This document shows positions 4,456 to 26,336 of a stretch of DNA of 26,951 nt, one piece after another (the stretch's first letter is position 1; every line of letters begins with the position of its first letter). The stretch comes from a virus. The DNA lies in IMG/VR virus record IMGVR_UViG_3300035670_001077, positions 1-26,951 of that record; one strand, written 5' to 3'. The translations under genes were made by a program, and so were the position numbers. The notes under the pieces are model-generated. The model had not been told where the DNA came from. It saw only the letters and a list, made by a program, of their open reading frames with translations, and made no database searches.

Positions 4456-4628
4456 TACCTCCGCTCCCAGCAGCCCCTGCCTAGTGCACGCTGACTGACG
4501 AGCGAGCGGTCCTCCGTGCAGCCCGTGTGGCGCACTGGCCCGAACTGCGGATGTCAACGACGAACGACAACCGCCGGGTCAGTGCGCCATTTTGCTGCGC
4601 AGTCCCGGCGCTAACCCCGGAGACTGTG
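4456..4628 (+). promoter_or_regulatory. Structured 5' leader of the first capsid gene
   Basis: This non-coding stretch contains a second strong dyad. Positions 4527-4542 pair with 4575-4590 (16 pairs, two G-U), continued by GCGG (4547-4550) with CCGC (4571-4574). Two CTCCG motifs (4459-4463 and 4512-4516) are complementary to the CGGAG ribosome binding site at 4618-4622. A leader that tunes capsid translation is plausible. An open frame begins with GTG at 4527, but its peptide has no capsid character and it lacks a good ribosome binding site, so I treat 4527-4628 as untranslated. Confidence 0.5.
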
Positions 4629-5879
4629 ATGGCAACCAAGACAACCCTGGACCGCGGCGGCGACGAGTACCGCCACCTGTTCCAGACCTACCTTCGGCAC
4701 GGCGTCAACCGCCTGACCGACGCGGAGACCCGAGCCCTGAGCCTGTCCGGCTCCGGCCTGGGCAGCGGCGTCGCCCCCACGGGCTGGATCGACTTCATCG
4801 ACACGGCGATGCAGCAGGACGCAATCCTGAGCCGCGTTCGCGTGGTGCAGAGTTCCGAGAAGTTCACCGCGCCCATCTACGTCGGCTCGGATGTCATCAA
4901 CAACACCAGCGTGGTTGCACGGATCGACGTGACCAATGGCGGCAGCGGCTATACGTCGGCACCGACTGTTGCCTTCTCGGGCGGCAGTGGATCGGGTGCC
5001 ACGGCTACGGCCACGATCAGCGGCGGCGCGGTGGTCAGCGTTGCCGTGACCAACGTGGGCAGCGGCTACACGTCGGCCCCGACCATTTCGTTCTCTGGCG
5101 GTGCGGGCTCCGGTGCAACCGCGACTGCCGTGATCGGCACCGAGGGACTGCGCACGGAGTCGTACACCAGCGGCACACAGTTTGCCCTGCCGCAGCAGGG
5201 TAGCGGCGGCAGCACGACCTACACCTTCGGCCTGAAGAAGGTCCACATCTGGGCCCGCGTCAGCAACGAGCTGCTTGAGGACTCGGCGTCTGCAGCCAGC
5301 GTCGAGCAGTTCCTGCTGCAGGAGTTCGCGAGCGAACTGAAGACCGAGATCAACCGCCAAATCATCATCGGCAACGGCACCAGCGAGTGCCAAGGTGCGT
5401 TTAACTCGGCCAAGGCGTACAGCCGCACGGCCAGCACCGGCGTGGCGACCACCAACAAGCCCAGCGACGTGATCGCTGCGGCGTGGGCTTCGACCAACTC
5501 GGCGCTCTCGCCGATGGCCCACGAGCAGTGGATCAACAGCGTCGCGGTGATCAACAGCCGACTGACTGCTTCGTTTGACTCAACCTTCTACCCGCCGCTG
5601 TTCCCGGTCTTCATGGGCAACATGAAGCAGGGCACGACGGTCGAGGGCTTGCCGACGATCTATCACCGGCTGAGCAATACCAACCCCGCCAGCGGCGACA
5701 CGCTGGTGATGTTCTTCGATCCGAGCAAGTACCTCCTCGTGACCAACTTTGCGGGCTTCACCGTGACGCGTCTGAGCGAGCGGTACGCGGACACCGATTC
5801 CACAGCCTTCGTCGCCAGCGTGCGGGCGGACGGGGCTCTCCTCCATTCCTCAGGCGTGTTGAACGTAAACCGGTCCTGA
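4629..5879 (+). CDS. HK97-fold major capsid protein paralogue 1 (no scaffold domain, repeat insertion)
   Basis: Capsid protein of 416 aa. The ATG at 4629 is chosen because GGAG lies 6 nt upstream (4619-4622) and capsid homology begins right after it. The N-terminal region ([14 protein letters not shown], then [12 protein letters not shown]) and C-terminal region ([15 protein letters not shown]) align with the next gene's product, which is a standard HK97 capsid protein. [10 protein letters not shown] (211-220) is the conserved spine-helix segment. Unlike its neighbour it lacks the N-terminal coiled-coil delta domain. Residues about 95-170, just before the E-loop-like [10 protein letters not shown], hold two Gly/Ser/Thr-rich repeats. 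It may be a minor capsomer such as a pentamer protein, or the principal one using the neighbour's scaffold in trans. Confidence 0.85.
4920..5138 (+). repeat. Tandem repeats within capsid paralogue 1
   Basis: Two copies of a roughly 36-residue unit, with core GSGYTSAPT followed by F-S-G-G-x-G-S-G-A-T-A-T-A, occupy residues about 98-133 and 138-170. DNA copies run about 4920-5027 and 5040-5138. The unit is a Gly-rich beta repeat that I know from assorted phage structural proteins. Third-position differences between copies show the duplication is not brand new. Confidence 0.8.
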
Positions 5880-5903: not shown

Positions 5904-7226
5904 ATGAACGACAAGGACACCTACCGAGGGCTCGTCGAGAAGATGGGCGCCCTCTACCGCGAGATGCAGTCGATGATCGACGCGGCGAACGAGAACGGCG
6001 GCGACATGAGCGCCGAGGACACGCAGCGCTTCGACGCGATGCAGGCCGAGTACCGCAAGCTGCAGGAGCAGCGCGAGCGGAACGTGAGCCTCATGCAGCT
6101 GGCCCAGAAGGACACCAATCTGGGCTGGGTCGAGTCGCCCGACGCCCCCGAGCGTCGCTCCGCGACCAAGGCGGTCAAGGCCAACAAGGGCACCCGCTGG
6201 GGCTCGTGGGCCGACTCCGAGGAGTACCGGGATGCGTTCGACTCCTACCTCCGCCGCGGCGAGCTGATCGGGCCGACCGAGCAGCGCGCCCTGAGCGAGG
6301 GTGGCACGGGCTTGGGCGACGTGATCGCCCCGACCGAGTTCAGCGACAAGATCTTCGAGCAGCTGCAGAAGATCGTGACCCTGCGCAAGTTGGCCCAGAT
6401 CATGCCGATGGGCTCGTGGAAGCGTGACCTGGTGATCGAGAGCAACGTGGCCGCGGTCAACTGGACCACGGAAGGCAGCTCGATCACCGACTCGCTGAAC
6501 ACCAACCCCACCTTCAGCAGCGTGGTGCTGAACGCCAAGAAGCTGGCGGGTCTCGCCAAGGTCAGCCGCGAGCTGGCCGAGGACGCCCCTGCCCGCGGCC
6601 CGGGCTTCAGCCTGGAGAACATCCTGACCAACTCCTTCGCCAAGGGTTTCGCGGAGAAGGAGGAGCAGGGCTTCCTCGTGGGCACCGGCTCTTCCGGCCA
6701 GCCCACGGGCATCCTGACGGTCGGCCCGTCTGCCGCGACCCCCTCAACGGGTCCGTCGGTCGGCGCAACTCTGGCGGCAAACACCGCAATCACCACCGCC
6801 AAGCTCATTGAGTGGATCTACAGCCTGCCGCGTCAGTATCGCCAGCACCCCAGCTGCGCGATTCTGGTCAGCAACAAGATCCTGCAGTTCCTGCGAGAGG
6901 TGCCAGTTCTTGCGTCATCGACGATGGGCTACTTCTGGCAGCCCAGCGGCATCCTCGGCGAGCCCGACCGTGTGATGGGCATTCCCATCTATGCGTCGCA
7001 CTACGTTCCCGATCCGGCCAACACGTCGCAGGGTTACACCGGCGGCGGCATCTGCGGCCTTATCGGTGCGTTCGACTACCTGGTCATCGGACAGCGCAGC
7101 CAGTTCTCGCTGCGTGTGCTCAACGAGCGCTACGCCGACGAGGACAACATCGGCATGGTCTGCACCAGCCGGGTTGACATCAAGTACACGCAGACGGACG
7201 CGTTCCGGTTCCTGCGTGGCGCGTGA
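5904..7226 (+). CDS. HK97-fold major capsid protein paralogue 2 (with delta/scaffold domain)
   Basis: 440-aa capsid protein with the full HK97 (Phage_capsid) plan. An N-terminal coiled coil (about residues 1-70) acts as the scaffolding delta domain, followed by a Lys/Arg-rich linker where the protease probably cuts (about 84-100). The shell domain begins at SEEYRDAFDSYLRRG. E-loop residues VNWTTEGSSIT, the spine segment LAKVSRELAEDA, the GTGSSGQPTGIL loop and the C-terminal FSLRVLNERYADEDN are typical. An AAAGGGA ribosome binding site precedes the ATG. It lies 24 bp after paralogue 1 and is followed by a strong terminator, consistent with high expression of both. Confidence 0.95.
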   Translation: MNDKDTYRGLVEKMGALYREMQSMIDAANENGGDMSAEDTQRFDAMQAEYRKLQEQRERNVSLMQLAQKDTNLGWVESPDAPERRSATKAVKANKGTRWGSWADSEEYRDAFDSYLRRGELIGPTEQRALSEGGTGLGDVIAPTEFSDKIFEQLQKIVTLRKLAQIMPMGSWKRDLVIESNVAAVNWTTEGSSITDSLNTNPTFSSVVLNAKKLAGLAKVSRELAEDAPARGPGFSLENILTNSFAKGFAEKEEQGFLVGTGSSGQPTGILTVGPSAATPSTGPSVGATLAANTAITTAKLIEWIYSLPRQYRQHPSCAILVSNKILQFLREVPVLASSTMGYFWQPSGILGEPDRVMGIPIYASHYVPDPANTSQGYTGGGICGLIGAFDYLVIGQRSQFSLRVLNERYADEDNIGMVCTSRVDIKYTQTDAFRFLRGA

Positions 7227-15837: not shown

Positions 15838-16505
15838 GCAGTCTGCTACAGGCGGCGTGCTGCTGCAATCAGTGCATCAACTGTGCATGCTTGCCCAGTT
15901 CGGTCACGATTGATTGTCCGTCGTTTGTGGCCAGCAACATCGGCGAAGACTGCAGTGGTTGCGGCGGTGGTGGCACCTATGACCCCACGATTCCGGCCAC
16001 TACGGTCACGGCGTATTTGTGCTGCGTCAACCCGACAGGCGACTCTTCAATTCCTGCAATTGCGCTCTATCGGGCCAACGCGATCAAGGTAGAGGACCTC
16101 ACTGAGTGTTGCACCGTGGACGGTGAGGGTGTGTGCACCGAGTTTGACATTTGGATCTTGTTCTACGTGCTCGGCTATTGCGTCGATGAAGGCAGTGGAC
16201 CCGTGTTCGCGGGCTGGACCGTGGGGGCGCAGATCGTGAAAGCGTCTAACGAGCCTTGCGCTCCGTGCGCGACACTCACCCCGCGTGACCTTTCGTCTTC
16301 GCCGTGTGCAGGCTTCACGACACTGGACACCGCAAATGATTCGTGGTTTACGTGTGTCAGCACCTGTTCCCCAGGTACCTCATGCGCAACCCTTATCAAT
16401 CAAGTGCTCAGCACGTCTGGCGGAAGCGATCCGTGCGACCCAACGGGGACGTACGCCGCTACGTTTCCTGACCCATTCGCAACTGGGAACCTTGTGGTCT
16501 CGTGA
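15834..16505 (+). CDS. Cysteine-rich protein, unknown function
   Basis: 223 aa with about 22 Cys residues, roughly 10 percent. The N-terminus begins with the cluster CCCNQCINCACLP, and pairs such as YLCC and ECC recur. GTG 15834 overlaps the previous stop as GTGA. The remainder is Thr/Ser/Gly/Asp-rich and beta-like. The Cys pattern could form disulphides in an extracellular virion protein or bind metal. Base composition is less GC-rich than neighbouring genes. It ends in a GTGA overlap with a second Cys-rich gene, so the pair is probably co-translated and may work together. Confidence 0.6.
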   Translation: MSSLLQAACCCNQCINCACLPSSVTIDCPSFVASNIGEDCSGCGGGGTYDPTIPATTVTAYLCCVNPTGDSSIPAIALYRANAIKVEDLTECCTVDGEGVCTEFDIWILFYVLGYCVDEGSGPVFAGWTVGAQIVKASNEPCAPCATLTPRDLSSSPCAGFTTLDTANDSWFTCVSTCSPGTSCATLINQVLSTSGGSDPCDPTGTYAATFPDPFATGNLVVS

Positions 16506-17082: not shown

Positions 17083-18423
17083 ATGGTGATCCGGGTCACC
17101 GTAGAGTTTCGTGTGGATTCAGGGCGTGCAACTCGGGGCGCAGCGTTGTCTGGCCTGCTCGAGCAGGTTGATGCGTGGCAGGCATACGCGCGCGAAGTCG
17201 AGGGTCATAGTCCCGCACACGCGGCACAGGCGTCCCGCTGGGTACGCTCGTGGCTGCAGCATTCACGCGAACACGCCACACCCGACGCGTGTGTAGCGTG
17301 GCTGCGTGACATGACGCGGCGGACCAAGTTGAGCCCGCAGACCATCCGCAACCGGGCCAGCGCCTGCAGGCGGTTCTGCGGCTGGCTGGTGGTGCAGGGC
17401 ATCCTCGACGCCAACCCGTGGGCGTCGGTGCCGATGCCCCGGGGACGCACCAAGCAGGGCGCCGACGCGTTCACCGACGAGCAGGTGGCCGCGCTGATCG
17501 CCCAGGCCGAACGCATGGCCCAGCAGGGACGCAAGCCCGCCGACCGAGCGTCGGCCGCCAACCGGGCCAACCTGTACAGGTTCCTGAGTTTGACCGGCCT
17601 ACGCCGCGGTGAGGCCCGGGCCCAGCGGTGGGAGGACATTGACCTGCAGGCCCGGACCATGGTGGTGACACACGACAAGGCCCGGCGCGCTGACCCGATC
17701 CCGCTGTCTGTGGCAGCGTGTGGCATGCTGCGGCAAATGCTGGCAGGACGTGGCACCGGGCTGGTGTTCCCCACGATCGTGACCGACAAGGCCCTGGAGG
17801 CGGACTGCCGCGCCTGCGGGATCACCGGCCGCGGCAAGTGGCACCGATTCCGGGTGGGGTTCGTGACCGAATCCTTCGAGGCCGGGGTGGCGCCGGAATT
17901 GATCCAGCGGCTGGCCCGGCACCGCTCTATCGACCAGACCCACCGATACTTGCGGCACCGCGAGGAGCGTTTGCGGGACGCGGTGGAAGCACGAGTAAGA
18001 AAAAAGTATCCAGATTCATTGCGCAGCAACGAAACTCCCGATAGGTTGCCCGTGGATTCAGACATGGCCATGGGCGCAACCATCACCGAGAGCACCAAGA
18101 CGACCAGCCAGGTCGCAGCGCCCCACGGCTCTGAATCCACAAACAACCTGGCTGGTCTTCTGCGTGCTCTCGGCCGCTCGGGTTCGCCTGCTACCTCGGC
18201 AAACGAAAAGGCCCGCGTCAAGCGACGCGAGCCTCTCGTGAGTCGGGGTGACAGGATTTGCACCGACACCCCCACCGACGTGGGACCCGAGCGGCTTATC
18301 CACCACGCCATGCTGCTGATGCAGCTGGCAATGCTGCAGATGCAGCAGGGAGCCGCCAGTGAGCAAGTTGCGATTTGGTCAGGTGGTCGAGGACATCGGC
18401 CTAGCAATTCAGGATCTGCGTAA
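17083..18423 (+). CDS. int: Tyrosine integrase with unusual C-terminal extension
   Basis: Site-specific recombinase. 446 aa from ATG 17083; no good ribosome binding site is seen, and a GTG at 17113 is an alternative. The N-terminal SAM-like core-binding domain spans about 25-120. The catalytic domain has R174 (TGLRRGE), K199 (THDKARR), H254-x-x-R257 (KWHRFRVGF), H280 (LARHRS) and the nucleophile Y289 (THRYLRH), so all canonical active-site residues are present. Most phage integrases end 10-30 residues after the Tyr. Here about 157 more follow, overlapping inverted repeats and a tRNA 3'-end copy. The last 65 bp overlap the next gene. The extension may be genuine coding or an attP region that happens to be open. 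Confidence 0.88.
   Translation: MVIRVTVEFRVDSGRATRGAALSGLLEQVDAWQAYAREVEGHSPAHAAQASRWVRSWLQHSREHATPDACVAWLRDMTRRTKLSPQTIRNRASACRRFCGWLVVQGILDANPWASVPMPRGRTKQGADAFTDEQVAALIAQAERMAQQGRKPADRASAANRANLYRFLSLTGLRRGEARAQRWEDIDLQARTMVVTHDKARRADPIPLSVAACGMLRQMLAGRGTGLVFPTIVTDKALEADCRACGITGRGKWHRFRVGFVTESFEAGVAPELIQRLARHRSIDQTHRYLRHREERLRDAVEARVRKKYPDSLRSNETPDRLPVDSDMAMGATITESTKTTSQVAAPHGSESTNNLAGLLRALGRSGSPATSANEKARVKRREPLVSRGDRICTDTPTDVGPERLIHHAMLLMQLAMLQMQQGAASEQVAIWSGGRGHRPSNSGSA
17113..17122 (+). repeat. GTGGATTCAG motif, copy 1
   Basis: First of three exact copies of a 10-bp motif found only around the integrase gene; the others are at 18052-18061 (+) and 18131-18140 (minus). The copies at 18052 and 18130 share an 11th base (GTGGATTCAGA). 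Likely protein-binding sites such as integrase arm-type sites. Confidence 0.55.
18052..18140. repeat. 11-bp inverted repeat flanking the attP region
   Basis: GTGGATTCAGA (18052-18062) and TCTGAATCCAC (18130-18140) are a perfect inverted pair separated by 67 bp. Interleaving with the next dyad (order A1-B1-A2-B2) is unusual for a simple hairpin and suits multiple recombinase or accessory-factor sites. Confidence 0.6.
18086..18173. repeat. 28-position imperfect inverted repeat
   Basis: CCGAGAGCAC (18086-18095) pairs with 18164-18173, and ACCAGCCAGGT (18103-18113) pairs with 18146-18156. About 25 of 28 positions are complementary, around a 32-nt centre. It lies within the integrase reading frame, close to the tRNA-like segment. 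Confidence 0.65.
18201..18234 (-). terminator. Minus-strand intrinsic terminator next to tRNA-like segment
   Basis: Read on the minus strand, a stem (18224-18234 with 18209-18219, ten pairs and one mismatch, GCTT loop) is followed by TTTTCGTTT (18209-18201). That is a good rho-independent terminator. It lies just downstream of the 3' end of the tRNA-like sequence, as a terminator follows a real tRNA gene. Since no minus-strand gene feeds it here, it makes most sense as a replacement terminator for a host tRNA after integration. Confidence 0.7.
18241..18264 (-). other. tRNA 3'-end copy, probable attP core
   Basis: On the minus strand the sequence reads as T-loop TGCAAAT (18262-18256), T-stem 3' strand CCTGT (18255-18251), acceptor 3' strand CACCCCG (18250-18244) and discriminator A (18243). 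This matches the 3' end of bacterial tRNA-Pro-like genes, whose acceptor is CGGGGTG/CACCCCG. No 5' half exists, so it is not a tRNA gene. Integrases of this family often recombine in tRNA 3' ends, and the adjacent terminator supports an attP. CCA is not encoded. A CCCAC-GTGGG hairpin at 18271-18284 may extend the identity. Confidence 0.65.
18310..18351 (+). repeat. Tandem 21-bp repeats, each with a dyad, before the early genes
   Basis: 18310-18330 and 18331-18351 match at 18 of 21 positions. Each contains GCTGC-N4-GCAGC (18312-18325 and 18333-18346), centre spacing 21 bp, two helical turns. They end at the ribosome binding site of the next gene. The geometry looks like tandem operators for a dimeric regulator or excisionase. 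Confidence 0.6.
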
Positions 18424-18763
18424 CGAGGGGCAGGCCCTCGACGCCTGCAAGGTTGAACTGACGCTGGAGCACCACGCCGGTGACATGGTGCGTGCTCTGA
18501 TGATCGCGTTCCCCCAGGGACGCCTTGAGCCGCGGTTCGTGTTGATGGCCGCGGACGCAGTGATCAGCCGCACCACGGAGATCGTGCTAGAGCACGCGGC
18601 CAAGTTGAAGCCTGCCCCGCTGGTCAAGACGGGCCAAGGCGACTACGTGAAGGAGACCACCGAGGCCGACGTGGTGCGTGCGGAGACCCGTGCGGCGGCT
18701 CGGCGGTGTGCTTGGATGACGATGTGCCGCCGGGCGATGGCCCGGGTCTGGGGGGTCGCATGA
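18359..18763 (+). CDS. Early protein of unknown function
   Basis: 134 aa from GTG 18359, with AGGGAG at 18347-18352. Helical and charged, with no recognised domain. Residues about 90-134 are Arg/Ala-rich and contain a Cys-Trp cluster (RRCAWMTMCRRAMARVWG). It is the first gene after the attP/operator region and is coupled by ATGA to the 47-aa HTH protein. It overlaps the integrase reading frame by 65 bp in a different frame. A regulatory role is possible from position alone. Confidence 0.55.
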   Translation: MSKLRFGQVVEDIGLAIQDLRNEGQALDACKVELTLEHHAGDMVRALMIAFPQGRLEPRFVLMAADAVISRTTEIVLEHAAKLKPAPLVKTGQGDYVKETTEADVVRAETRAAARRCAWMTMCRRAMARVWGVA

Positions 18764-22316: not shown

Positions 22317-24227
22317 ATGCCAGACACCGTTACCGCCGAGGTTGAGGCTGCGATGCAGCTGCTCGGGTTCATCTTTGAGCCCGGCGACCTGATCGAGTTC
22401 CGCACCATCGGAACCAAGCCAAGCCAACACTGGGCGATGCTGCAAGATGCATCAACTTGCATCAACTTGCTGCAGGCGTACCCGGCTGGCACGCACGTGT
22501 ACTTCGGAGCCAACCCACGCAGGGAGCGCGGCGGCAAGGCCGAGCACGTCGGGCTGGCCCGCTGCCTGTTCGCCGACTTCGACGGTGGCGTTGGCGTGGA
22601 GGAAGCCCGGCGTCGGTGGACCGAGGCCCTGATCCCCGAGCCCACCGTGATCGTCTCCACCGGCGGCGGCGTGCACGCCTGGTGGCGGTTGCTTGAGCCC
22701 ATGGAGGACCTGAAGGCGTGGACCGCACGCCAGAAGGCGCTGGCCATCCGGCTCGGGTCGGACCAGGCCGTGACCGACGCACCCCGGATCATGCGTCTGC
22801 CGGGTTTCAGGAACTGGAAGTACCACCACCAGCCACTGTGCGTGGTCGAGGCGTGCGAGCCCGACAACGTGTACGACCTGGACGAGTTCCCCGACCCGGT
22901 GCAGTTCGCGGCCGAGGCACCGGACGAGCACGTGGCCCCCGGCTCGCTGTCTGACCTGTCCCAGCGGTTCCTGCACGAGGGCTTCGTGATGCGGGCTGGG
23001 CGGCGGCAGACGATCTTCACGGTCGCCTGCGACCTGCGGGCCCGCGAGTGGGACCAGGGCGACGCCGAGCGGGCCATCATGAAGCGTGCCCGCCTGCTGA
23101 GGCTGGAGCCGGACGAGTTGGCCGACGTGCCGCGTCAGGTCCGCAACGCGTTCAAGGGCGACAGGGCGCCCTGCAGGGGCCGGGCTGAGGACGTGGAGGT
23201 GGCCGAGGAGGTCGAGCCGGTGAGCCAGCCGGTGGGCATCCTAGACCTGATACGGGCCAACCCGGCGATGAGGCGGCCGCTGGTGCACGGCCTGCTGCGG
23301 TCCGGCGAGACGATGAACATCATCGCCGCGCCCAAGACTGGCAAGTCGTGGATGGTGCTGGACCTTGCCCTGTGCGTGGCGACCGGGCGGGCGTGGATGA
23401 ACACCTACAAGGTCGAGCGGTCCAAGGTCCTGCTGGTGGACAACGAGTTGCACGAGGAGACCTTGGCCGAACGCCTGCAGCGGGTTGCTCAGGCCATGGG
23501 AATCCCGCTGGAGGAACTGGACGGGTGGCTGGAGGTCAAGAGCCTCCGCGGCGCCCTGCAGTCGTTCGAGACCCTTGACAGGGGCATGCTGGCACCCGTG
23601 CAGCCCGGCCACTACGGGCTGGTGATCTTCGACGCGTTCTACCGGTTCAACATCGGGGACGGTGCCGACGAGAACGACAACTCCTACATGGCCAGCACCT
23701 ACAACCGGCTAGACGCCATTGCCAAGCGGCTGGACGCGGCCCTGGTCTGCATCCACCACACGAGCAAGGGCAGCCAGGCCGAGAAGGCGGTGACCGACGT
23801 GGGCTCAGGGGCCGGGTCCATGAGCCGTGCTGCGGACACCCATCTGGTCCTGCGGGAGCACGAGCTGGAGAAGCACCTGGTGATCGACGCCGCCTGCCGG
23901 TCGTGGGCCCCGATCGAGGCCGCCGTGGTGCGGTTCGAGTACCCGCGGTTCTACCCGGAGCCGATGGCCGATCCCAAGATGCTGAAGAAGGCTCGAAAGG
24001 GCAAGGATGACGGCTGGGACGTGGACCGGTTCGTCAACGAGTTCTTCCCAAACCCGGCGATTGAGTTGTCGCACAGGGATCTAGAGGCGTCTGGCATTGA
24101 GGCTGGGCTGACGAAGAACCGCATCCGCACCTTGAAGGAGCAGGCGGTCGCCAAGACACCGAGGCGGAGGCCCCTCTTGGAGCGGGTGGGAGACGCCCGT
24201 TCGACCAAGTATCGGAGGGCATCGTGA
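22317..24227 (+). CDS. Primase-polymerase / RepA-like helicase fusion
   Basis: 636-aa replication protein that would synthesise primers and unwind DNA at the phage origin. The N-terminal primase-polymerase-like domain (about 1-200) has FADFDGG (D87-x-D89), STGGGVHAWW (114-123, with H120) and DAPRIMRLPGFRNWK, the motifs of archaeo-eukaryotic-type primases. The C-terminal AAA_25/RepA-type helicase has Walker A APKTGKS (338-344), Walker B LVIFD (435-439) and the sensor-like CIHHTSKG (478-485). No DNA polymerase gene is present, so the host replisome is probably used. It is followed immediately by an iteron-like repeat cluster. Confidence 0.85.
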   Translation: MPDTVTAEVEAAMQLLGFIFEPGDLIEFRTIGTKPSQHWAMLQDASTCINLLQAYPAGTHVYFGANPRRERGGKAEHVGLARCLFADFDGGVGVEEARRRWTEALIPEPTVIVSTGGGVHAWWRLLEPMEDLKAWTARQKALAIRLGSDQAVTDAPRIMRLPGFRNWKYHHQPLCVVEACEPDNVYDLDEFPDPVQFAAEAPDEHVAPGSLSDLSQRFLHEGFVMRAGRRQTIFTVACDLRAREWDQGDAERAIMKRARLLRLEPDELADVPRQVRNAFKGDRAPCRGRAEDVEVAEEVEPVSQPVGILDLIRANPAMRRPLVHGLLRSGETMNIIAAPKTGKSWMVLDLALCVATGRAWMNTYKVERSKVLLVDNELHEETLAERLQRVAQAMGIPLEELDGWLEVKSLRGALQSFETLDRGMLAPVQPGHYGLVIFDAFYRFNIGDGADENDNSYMASTYNRLDAIAKRLDAALVCIHHTSKGSQAEKAVTDVGSGAGSMSRAADTHLVLREHELEKHLVIDAACRSWAPIEAAVVRFEYPRFYPEPMADPKMLKKARKGKDDGWDVDRFVNEFFPNPAIELSHRDLEASGIEAGLTKNRIRTLKEQAVAKTPRRRPLLERVGDARSTKYRRAS

Positions 24228-24387
24228 GCCCTGATAACTACCCGGAGAATCTTGGGGCGAGAATCGTGGGGCCCCAAGATTACCCCGCAAGATTGGGCAG
24301 GAGAATCTTGTGGGGAATCCCTAACGGGATTCCCCCACAAGATTCGTCCTGCTGCCTTGAGGGACCCCGAGAATGACCCCCAAGATT
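24228..24387. repeat. Iteron cluster, candidate replication origin
   Basis: Seven copies of an AATCTTG(N-N)GGGG motif lie in 140 bp: + strand at 24248-24257, 24262-24271 (one mismatch) and 24304-24315, and minus strand at 24272-24281, 24283-24294, 24333-24344 and 24378-24387. Copies two and three abut as a near-palindrome. Copies at 24304 and 24333 flank GAATCCC-TAAC-GGGATTC, making a near-perfect dyad (24303-24345, one bulged base). The block follows the primase-helicase gene and the last copy overlaps the next gene's first codons. It may be the origin, a partition-like site or an operator cluster. Confidence 0.7.
24303..24345. repeat. Large palindrome inside the iteron cluster
   Basis: Left arm 24303-24321 and right arm 24326-24345 are complementary across their whole lengths except one extra C in the right arm, with a TAAC loop. 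This is the longest perfect-type dyad in the window after the integrase region. No T-run follows, so it is not a typical terminator. Confidence 0.7.
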
Positions 24388-24729
24388 CGGGTGGCGGGAA
24401 AGGCGGACCTTGTTCTGCGGGCTCTGGTCTGGCTGGAGGAGGGCCACGACTCGGGCAAGGCGCTTGCCTCGGTCAGGCAGACCGCCAGCCAGGACCACCG
24501 CAGGCTGGCCCTGTACCTCACCCTGCTGCACCGGGTCGGCCAGATCACCAGGCACGCCGCCTGCCGATGCCTGCGCCAAGACTGGCCCCGCTGTCGCTGG
24601 GCCCTCGAACGCCACGAACCGCCCCAGGAGGAGGTCACGGAGTGGGCTCGGCTGGTGCACGACGCGCTCGTGGTCATGGAACAGCAGCGCAGGGCCGCGA
24701 CAATGCGAGCATGCAGGAGACCGTCCTGA
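24373..24729 (+). CDS. Small basic early protein, unknown function
   Basis: 118 aa from ATG 24373 with GAGGGA at 24359-24364. The N-terminal residues (PKIRVAGK) are encoded by the last iteron copy. The body is alpha-helical and Arg/Leu-rich (ALASVRQTASQDHRRLALYL, then VGQITRHAACRCL). The helical pattern could hold a winged-helix-like DNA-binding fold, but I recognise no family. Location between the origin candidate and replication nuclease genes suggests a replication role. Confidence 0.5.
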   Translation: MTPKIRVAGKADLVLRALVWLEEGHDSGKALASVRQTASQDHRRLALYLTLLHRVGQITRHAACRCLRQDWPRCRWALERHEPPQEEVTEWARLVHDALVVMEQQRRAATMRACRRPS

Positions 24730-24993: not shown

Positions 24994-25380
24994 ATGGGCA
25001 AGCGCAGCCGGGACAAGGGCAAGCGCGGCGAGAGGGAGGCCGCGGCCATGATCGCCCACCATTGGAACGCCACCGGAGCACGCCGCGCCGTGCAGTTCTG
25101 TGGCCGCTCAGGAGACGCGGACCTCACCGGCGTGCCGGGCCTGCATTGCGAGGTCAAGCGGTACGCCCGTATCTCGGCGCTGGACTTCCTGCAGCAGGCC
25201 GAGATGGACGCCAGCCCGGACACCGTTCCCGTGGTGCTCATGCGTGAGGACACCAGCACCGAGTGGGTGGTCATGCTGCGGGTTTCGGATGCCCCGGAGT
25301 TCGCCAGGCGTCTGCTGCAGATGGTCGGCGAGCCGGGCCCGATCACGAATCCCGACGCCTACGCGGGGGGTTTGGAATGA
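24994..25380 (+). CDS. Holliday-junction-type PDDEXK nuclease
   Basis: 128 aa from ATG 24994 with AGGATGAGGAC upstream. It resolves branched DNA before packaging, by family inference. Motifs: KGKRGEREAAAMI (E13/E15), SGDADLTG (D41/D43) and HCEVKR (E53-x-K55), the E-D-ExK catalytic pattern of Hjc/VRR-like nucleases. The remaining region (ALDFLQQAEMDA, then VPVVLMRED and WVVMLR) fits the same fold. It couples to the metallophosphoesterase gene by ATGA. Confidence 0.78.
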   Translation: MGKRSRDKGKRGEREAAAMIAHHWNATGARRAVQFCGRSGDADLTGVPGLHCEVKRYARISALDFLQQAEMDASPDTVPVVLMREDTSTEWVVMLRVSDAPEFARRLLQMVGEPGPITNPDAYAGGLE

Positions 25381-26336
25381 CCACACGCGTCCGCGAGAAC
25401 ATTCGGGTGGAGCGTGATCTCAATGGTCACGTCTGGCGTGAGGGCTGCTCACCCGACAGCCGATGGACCGTCGAGAAACTGAGCCGCAACGTGCACCGGG
25501 TCACCATGCTCTGCGACACCGCTCACCAGTTCGAGTGGTGGGGCCTGCTGTCGAGCGATCGGCACCACGACAACGCGCACACGAATCAGGCCTTGGAGCG
25601 AAAGCACCTTGAGGAGATCACCAAGCGCAAGGGCGGCATCCTTGATTGCGGCGACCTGTTCTGCGCGATGCAGGGCAAGTGGGACCCCCGGGCTGACCGA
25701 TCCGCCCTACGGCCCGAGTACCAGGCAGGCGACTACCTCGACGCCCTAGTGCGTGAGGGCGTCAAGTTCTTCCAGCCCTACGCCGATCGCTTCGTCTGCA
25801 TCGGCCGAGGCAACCACGAGACCGCGATCCACAAGCGTCACGAGACGGATCTGATCGAGCGTCTGTGTGCGGGCTTGAGCAACGGCCCGGTGCCCGTGCA
25901 TTCAGGCGGGTACGGCGGCTACGTGCTGTTCCGCTGCATCACGAGGAAGGGCGGGTCGTACTCGTTCAAGATCCGCTACTTCCACGGCTCCGGTGGCGGC
26001 GCGATGATGACCCACGGCGTGCTGGACACGCGGCGCCATGCCAGCATCTACCCCGACGCAGACATGGTGATCACTGGGCACAGTCACCACCACTGGGTCG
26101 TTCCGATCGCACGCGAGCGAATTCGGCAGTTCAGCGGGAAGGCCGAGGTGACCATCGACGAGCAGCTGCACGTGCGGATCGGCACGTACAAGGACGAGCA
26201 CGGCGACGGGTTTGGTGGCTGGAGTGTCGAGAAGGGCCTACCACCGAAGGGGCTCGGAGCGGTCTGGATGCGTCTGCACATTGCGGGCAAGCAGGGCGAG
26301 TACCGGCTGGCTGCGGAGGTGACTCGTGCCCAGTGA
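25377..26336 (+). CDS. Calcineurin-like metallophosphoesterase
   Basis: 319 aa from ATG 25377. The five metal-binding blocks are present: SDRHHDN (D61-x-H63, D65), CGDLF (G92-D93), GRGNHET (N146-H147-E148), YFHGSGGG and ITGHSHHHW. This makes it a complete dimetal phosphoesterase. Phage members of this family may act on DNA ends, nucleotides or RNA, and the substrate cannot be told. Neighbouring nuclease and peptidase genes suggest a nucleic-acid processing role. It overlaps the next gene by 11 bp. Confidence 0.85.
   Translation: MTTRVRENIRVERDLNGHVWREGCSPDSRWTVEKLSRNVHRVTMLCDTAHQFEWWGLLSSDRHHDNAHTNQALERKHLEEITKRKGGILDCGDLFCAMQGKWDPRADRSALRPEYQAGDYLDALVREGVKFFQPYADRFVCIGRGNHETAIHKRHETDLIERLCAGLSNGPVPVHSGGYGGYVLFRCITRKGGSYSFKIRYFHGSGGGAMMTHGVLDTRRHASIYPDADMVITGHSHHHWVVPIARERIRQFSGKAEVTIDEQLHVRIGTYKDEHGDGFGGWSVEKGLPPKGLGAVWMRLHIAGKQGEYRLAAEVTRAQ

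Follow-up and report, generated by a model that had tools for sequence, protein, structure and literature searches.

A cluster of eight short sites arranged around a long hairpin lies immediately downstream of a primase-helicase gene in an IMG/VR virus record of 26,951 bases (hereafter the window, by which we mean the whole stretch of DNA analysed). In related phages the sites keep their positions and orientations and the motif that they spell is replaced in concert; in two pairs of phages, sequence comparison indicates that array, hairpin and the helicase and winged-helix parts of the neighbouring gene were exchanged as a unit. We consider it likely, with a probability of about 0.77, that the cluster is a replication origin composed of iterons and a hairpin resembling a single-strand initiation (ssi) site, and that the phage's own primase-helicase binds the sites through its C-terminal winged helix. 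By analogy, the arrangement is best read as a one-protein version of the schemes of RSF1010, P4 alpha and pRN1.

Sites, hairpin and primase-helicase

The array (24248–24387) is placed between the stop of the primase-helicase gene (24227) and the start of a small downstream open reading frame (ORF), ORF118 (24373). It consists of seven AATCTTG(N)GGGG copies in both orientations, one of them as AATCGTG, together with an eighth, degenerate copy; a preliminary description of this DNA had recognised the seven copies and their two orientations and had overlooked the eighth. The elements are as follows (pLDDT, predicted local distance difference test).

22317–24227, plus strand: primase-helicase gene, 636 amino acids, proposed initiator
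23979–24224, plus strand: C-terminal domain of the primase-helicase, residues 555–636, proposed reader of the sites (AlphaFold2 pLDDT 84)
24248–24257, plus strand: site 1, AATCTTGGGG
24262–24271, plus strand: site 2, AATCGTGGGG
24272–24281, minus strand: site 3, AATCTTGGGG (in relative L006, AATCTCGGGG)
24285–24294, minus strand: site 4, AATCTTGCGG(GG)
24297–24352, no strand assigned: long hairpin, arms 24297–24321 and 24326–24352, loop TAAC
24304–24313, plus strand: site 5, AATCTTGTGG(GG), in the left arm of the hairpin
24335–24344, minus strand: site 6, AATCTTGTGG(GG), in the right arm of the hairpin
24365–24374, minus strand: site 7, degenerate, ATTCTCGGGG
24378–24387, minus strand: site 8, AATCTTGGGG, within the coding start of ORF118

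Such a density of repeats is not expected by chance. AATCTTG occurs in six non-overlapping copies inside 160 bp, a density reached in 0 of 200 dinucleotide-preserving shuffles, where the top count of any 7-mer was 4; any 7-mer likewise peaks at 4 in the remainder of the real window. When one mismatch to the consensus is allowed, the array stretch holds 7 matches against about 0.01 expected. Across the whole record, exact AATCTTG(N0-8)GGGG has no further match outside the array, and the nearest outside variant is a single AATCGTGGGG at 15983. The array (24247–24388) also contains seven of the 86 GANTC sites in the window. These were considered as a conserved methylation feature and rejected, the CTCTTGAGG class of relatives described below not spelling GANTC; they are probably incidental.

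The hairpin at the centre of the array spans 56 nt with 25 pairs (z = -7.8, DNA parameters). A 43-bp dyad (24303–24345) noted in the preliminary description is real and forms its core, the extension into a longer, conserved hairpin having gone unrecognised there. All 12 loci folded from the group of closer relatives (group A: the window, L006, L007, L110, L112, L119, L118, L121, L125, L127, L128 and L131) keep the hairpin, with z between -5.8 and -9.8, and most share the loop core CC-TAAA-GG. Counted from the loop towards the base of the stem, two-sided pair differences numbered 7 between the window and L112 and 16 between the window and L110, with 0 one-sided differences; MAFFT alignment across motif classes misplaced L110. 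We propose that the hairpin acts as an element for single-strand initiation or priming.

The gene directly upstream bears out the earlier suggestion of an adjacent Rep-like gene. It encodes a RepB_primase-type archaeo-eukaryotic primase (AEP) domain (matched at residues 109–171; Pfam RepB_primase 4.5e-9, above cut-off) and a RecA-fold helicase domain like that of RSF1010 RepA (residues 310–486; AAA_25 1.8e-35). Searched against the PDB, the family profile returned only RSF1010 RepA (1g8y/1nlf/1olo, 4e-10) and a PrimPol AEP domain (6zp9, 5e-6). For the last 82 residues, modelled with AlphaFold2, a winged helix is predicted at about 568–636 with the element order H-S-H-H-S-S, and most of the nearest folds (Z 7–8.5) belong to winged-helix proteins, Fur, MecI and BlaI among them. 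Among the proteins scanned, which did not comprise every ORF, neither a separate initiator nor a DNA polymerase could be recognised, and to that extent the earlier view of a phage without its own polymerase holds.

Concerted replacement of the motif and exchange of the cassette

In relatives the eight sites keep their places and orientations; what the preliminary description had missed is that all the sites change together, the motif being replaced by AATCTCGGGG, CTCTTGAGG or ATCTGTCGG. In L007 and L008, sites 1–6 and 8 read AATCTCGGGG, with spacing and inter-site bases retained: between the window and L007 there are 15 differences, 11 of them in core sites, and each of the seven altered sites arrives at AATCTCGGGG. 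An intermediate exists in L006, whose array is that of the window except for site 3, which has the L007 form; this fits stepwise change. L020/L110 and L111 carry CTCTTGAGG at the same eight positions, and L112–L117, L119 and L120 share ATCTGTCGG as a common motif, two of the eight sites being degenerate in L112, the member in which positions were measured. The frame-broken contig L009 was left out of the site counts. Offsets of the sites from the hairpin centre agree to within two bases over all four motif classes:

Window and L007: -76 -62 -43 -30 -20 +20 +50 +63
CTCTTGAGG class: -75 -62 -43 -31 -19 +18 +48 +62
ATCTGTCGG class: -74 -62 -43 -31 -19 +19 +49 +61

The use of both orientations fits recognition of duplex DNA.

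In every group-A relative examined, array and hairpin directly follow the primase-helicase gene or sit in its 3' end, the latter in L118, L121 and L125. Two pairs of phages point to movement of the whole arrangement. In DNA, L113 and L125 agree at about 97% over most of the primase part and again from ORF118 onward, and fall to roughly 30–70% identity across the helicase, winged helix, array and hairpin. The pair L118 and L121 has its exchange boundaries at the same points, with lower overall identity. Judged by these boundaries, helicase, winged helix, array and hairpin have been swapped as one cassette in both pairs, with ORF118 staying in place.

The swaps also bear on which protein would read the sites. 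ORF118 was at first favoured, being 50% identical between the window and L007, and was rejected once the swaps had been seen. Across differing arrays it remains 95% identical (L112 versus L124, itself closely related to L125) and 78% identical (L118 versus L121), whereas the winged helix is 23% identical between L112 or L113 and L124 and 12% identical between L118 and L121. Because ORF118 is similar where arrays differ and the winged helix is divergent, the comparison favours the winged helix as reader, and ORF118 is probably not the protein that recognises the sites. In a comparison of the window with another relative, G002, identity is 78% in the winged helix against 93% and 96% in the other parts of the primase-helicase; the start of the recognition helix is among the places that differ.

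More distant relatives (L152–L181, primase 35–46% identical) mostly carry a separate winged helix-turn-helix (wHTH) gene, at about 5.7–6.3 kb, after the primase-helicase gene. Inverted-repeat iterons spaced about 22 bp apart lie in its 3' part, their motif varying from group to group of phages, and a hairpin follows the iterons in the six that were folded. Four wHTH genes were compared with PHROGs: two match replication-initiation families, and one of the two matches O-like families as well. Read from gene and repeat positions, the order wHTH, iterons, hairpin is thus common to the window group and the distant relatives. Lambdoid phages carry iterons within the gene of the O protein itself, a likeness to L152–L181, where the iterons lie inside the wHTH gene; the window differs in that its array follows the primase-helicase gene and is not inside a separate O-like gene.

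The proposed origin and its alternatives

We infer the following course of initiation. Using its winged helix, the primase-helicase would bind the eight sites in duplex form, a short way past the end of the gene that encodes it; the bound copies would assemble, and the RepA-like helicase domain would open the DNA. The long hairpin could then form in the opened strand, the RepB'-like primase domain may begin a primer there, in the manner of the RSF1010 ssi sites, and a host polymerase would extend it.

Several observations weigh against this origin. GC skew shows no clear switch at the array, and neither a DnaA-box-like match nor a strongly AT-rich unwinding stretch was found near it (the lowest 40-mer nearby has 50% GC versus 65% for the record, at about the 4th percentile). 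The array is weak in L125 and weaker still in L131, where it is not beyond shuffles. Since the array adjoins the winged helix, linkage alone partly predicts their joint exchange, and ORF118, too, is strongly different between the window and L007.

The preliminary description had offered a multi-site operator as the other possibility, and a regulatory or autoregulatory array for the downstream genes, with ORF118 or some other regulator of the phage as its reader, is the alternative that survives best, unlikely as we judge it to be. Its possible reader is encoded immediately downstream:

24373–24729, plus strand: ORF118, small all-helical protein (AlphaFold2 pLDDT 87)

In favour of this reading, ORF118 begins within the array, is all-helical and differs between the window and L007 as the motif does, and repressor–operator pairs can likewise change in step. 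Foldseek gave no convincing match for its fold. The divergence of ORF118 from L007 is, however, part of a longer diverged stretch that extends into the next genes, and ORF118 is the part conserved across differing arrays. No sigma-70-like promoter was found in the array region, in a search that did not cover other promoter types, and no intrinsic terminator (a GC-rich stem with a T run) was found at the array or hairpin; an operator would also leave the conserved hairpin unexplained. The junction of the array with the primase-helicase gene and its exchange together with helicase and winged helix argue instead for an iteron origin, as do the arrays held in the distant wHTH genes and the replication-initiation profiles that some of these genes match.

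That the element acts as RNA, as a structured messenger RNA region between genes that serves processing, stability or translational coupling, is very improbable in our estimation. The hairpin is very stable and its TAAA loop core is conserved, and it is spanned by a further open frame whose start and stop signals overlap those of its neighbours:

24224–24376, plus strand: 50-codon open frame that spans the array; it shares GTGA with the primase stop and ATGA with the ORF118 start

The equivalent frames of relatives are also open and have almost no residues in common, so this frame probably maintains translation or coupling and does not encode a conserved protein. The two orientations of the sites and the convergence of all non-hairpin sites on one motif point instead to duplex DNA; the hairpin has no terminator tail, and no Rfam family reached cut-off, the best matches being sub-threshold, chance microRNA-type hairpins. 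Hardly credible, finally, is a mutational by-product in which short-tract template switching or quasipalindrome correction, to which inverted repeats are prone and which could maintain the hairpin pairing, homogenises the repeats without selection: inter-site bases stay nearly constant while every core site changes, positions and orientation are maintained across clearly different motifs, and one site of L006 retains the other form.

Genome context, known systems and implications

Because terminase genes open the record and an HNH gene closes it, and because its close relatives are cut at different points, the window is probably a near-complete, permuted tailed phage of about 27 kb with an integrase. 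The sequences of this phage group come without exception from metagenomes. One genome scan for a host with a close-relative profile gave no matches; in a second, three contigs from Planctomycetota or Phycisphaerae matched the primase domain only. The nearest genome matches for this domain are Planctomycetota assemblies, and in the one such contig inspected (L187) the protein differs outside it. Isolated phages and plasmids, among the matches listed, were all partial matches of at most about 32% identity.

Elsewhere in the window, a tandem gene pair (4527–5879 and 5904–7226) matches major head protein profiles in both members, the middle part of the first also matching virion and tail structural repeat profiles. 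A phosphoesterase/exonuclease-like gene (25377–26336) has only about 32% identity with the corresponding gene of L006, against 97–99% for its neighbours, and on this contrast is a swapped gene. A small protein (18359–18763) without family match has a C-terminal half that by eye resembles a sigma-factor-type helix-turn-helix; its identity is 57% in G002 versus 98% in G001.

The proposed origin combines traits of several known systems. In RSF1010 (IncQ), iterons and ssi stem-loops (ssiA-ssiB) are served by three proteins, RepC, the RepA helicase and the RepB' primase (PMC4234260). The window shares a RepA-like helicase, a RepB-type primase domain, repeats and a stem-loop; it differs in that primase, helicase and DNA-binding domain are predicted in one polypeptide with no separate RepC recognised among the scanned proteins, and in its short sites, which occur in both orientations in an array within the initiator gene or immediately behind it. 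The primase-helicase-winged-helix protein of pRN1 (ORF904) requires a stem-loop that follows its gene immediately on the 3' side and is conserved in structure and not in sequence, and the same arrangement has been proposed for Bordetella phage BIP-1 (PMC4234260). The window resembles both in its single protein and in the long stem-loop that comes next after the gene's 3' end, kept in structure without sequence; the pRN1 helicase, however, belongs to superfamily 3 (SF3), whereas that of the window has a RecA fold (AAA_25/RepA-like), and pRN1 lacks iterons where the window has eight sites around the hairpin. Phage P4 alpha is a single protein with primase and helicase parts that binds origin repeats through a winged helix (PMC4234260), as predicted here, but its primase is of the TOPRIM type and a hairpin of the window kind is not described in PMC4234260. 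In the PLE satellite, the DNA-binding domain of RepA and the iterons are exchanged together, an origin-directed phage nuclease being the likely, proposed selective force (PMC8263062); that initiator belongs to the RepA_N family, its iterons measure about 30 bp, and there is no primase-helicase fusion.

Iteron-type origins are thus a known kind, and what appears to be new here is the joining of RSF1010, pRN1 and PLE features in one protein, together with a graded natural series of changed sites. We tentatively raise the possibility of a phage replicon class in which one protein serves as primase, helicase and origin recognition factor, and in which the eight sites would be repeatedly re-specified along with the winged helix, either one site at a time or through exchange of the cassette, with geometry and hairpin fixed; the driver might be conflict over the origin, for example with satellites or origin-directed nucleases.

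Plasmid and phage biology has long asked how the specificity of an initiator can shift in step with that of the many copies of its site. The fixed eight-site layout carries at least three clearly different motif classes, a small step between the window and L007, the intermediate L006 and natural cassette swaps, so that co-change of specificity becomes testable with a small cross-binding matrix. At the same time, the cluster offers a candidate origin for a group of little-known environmental phages.
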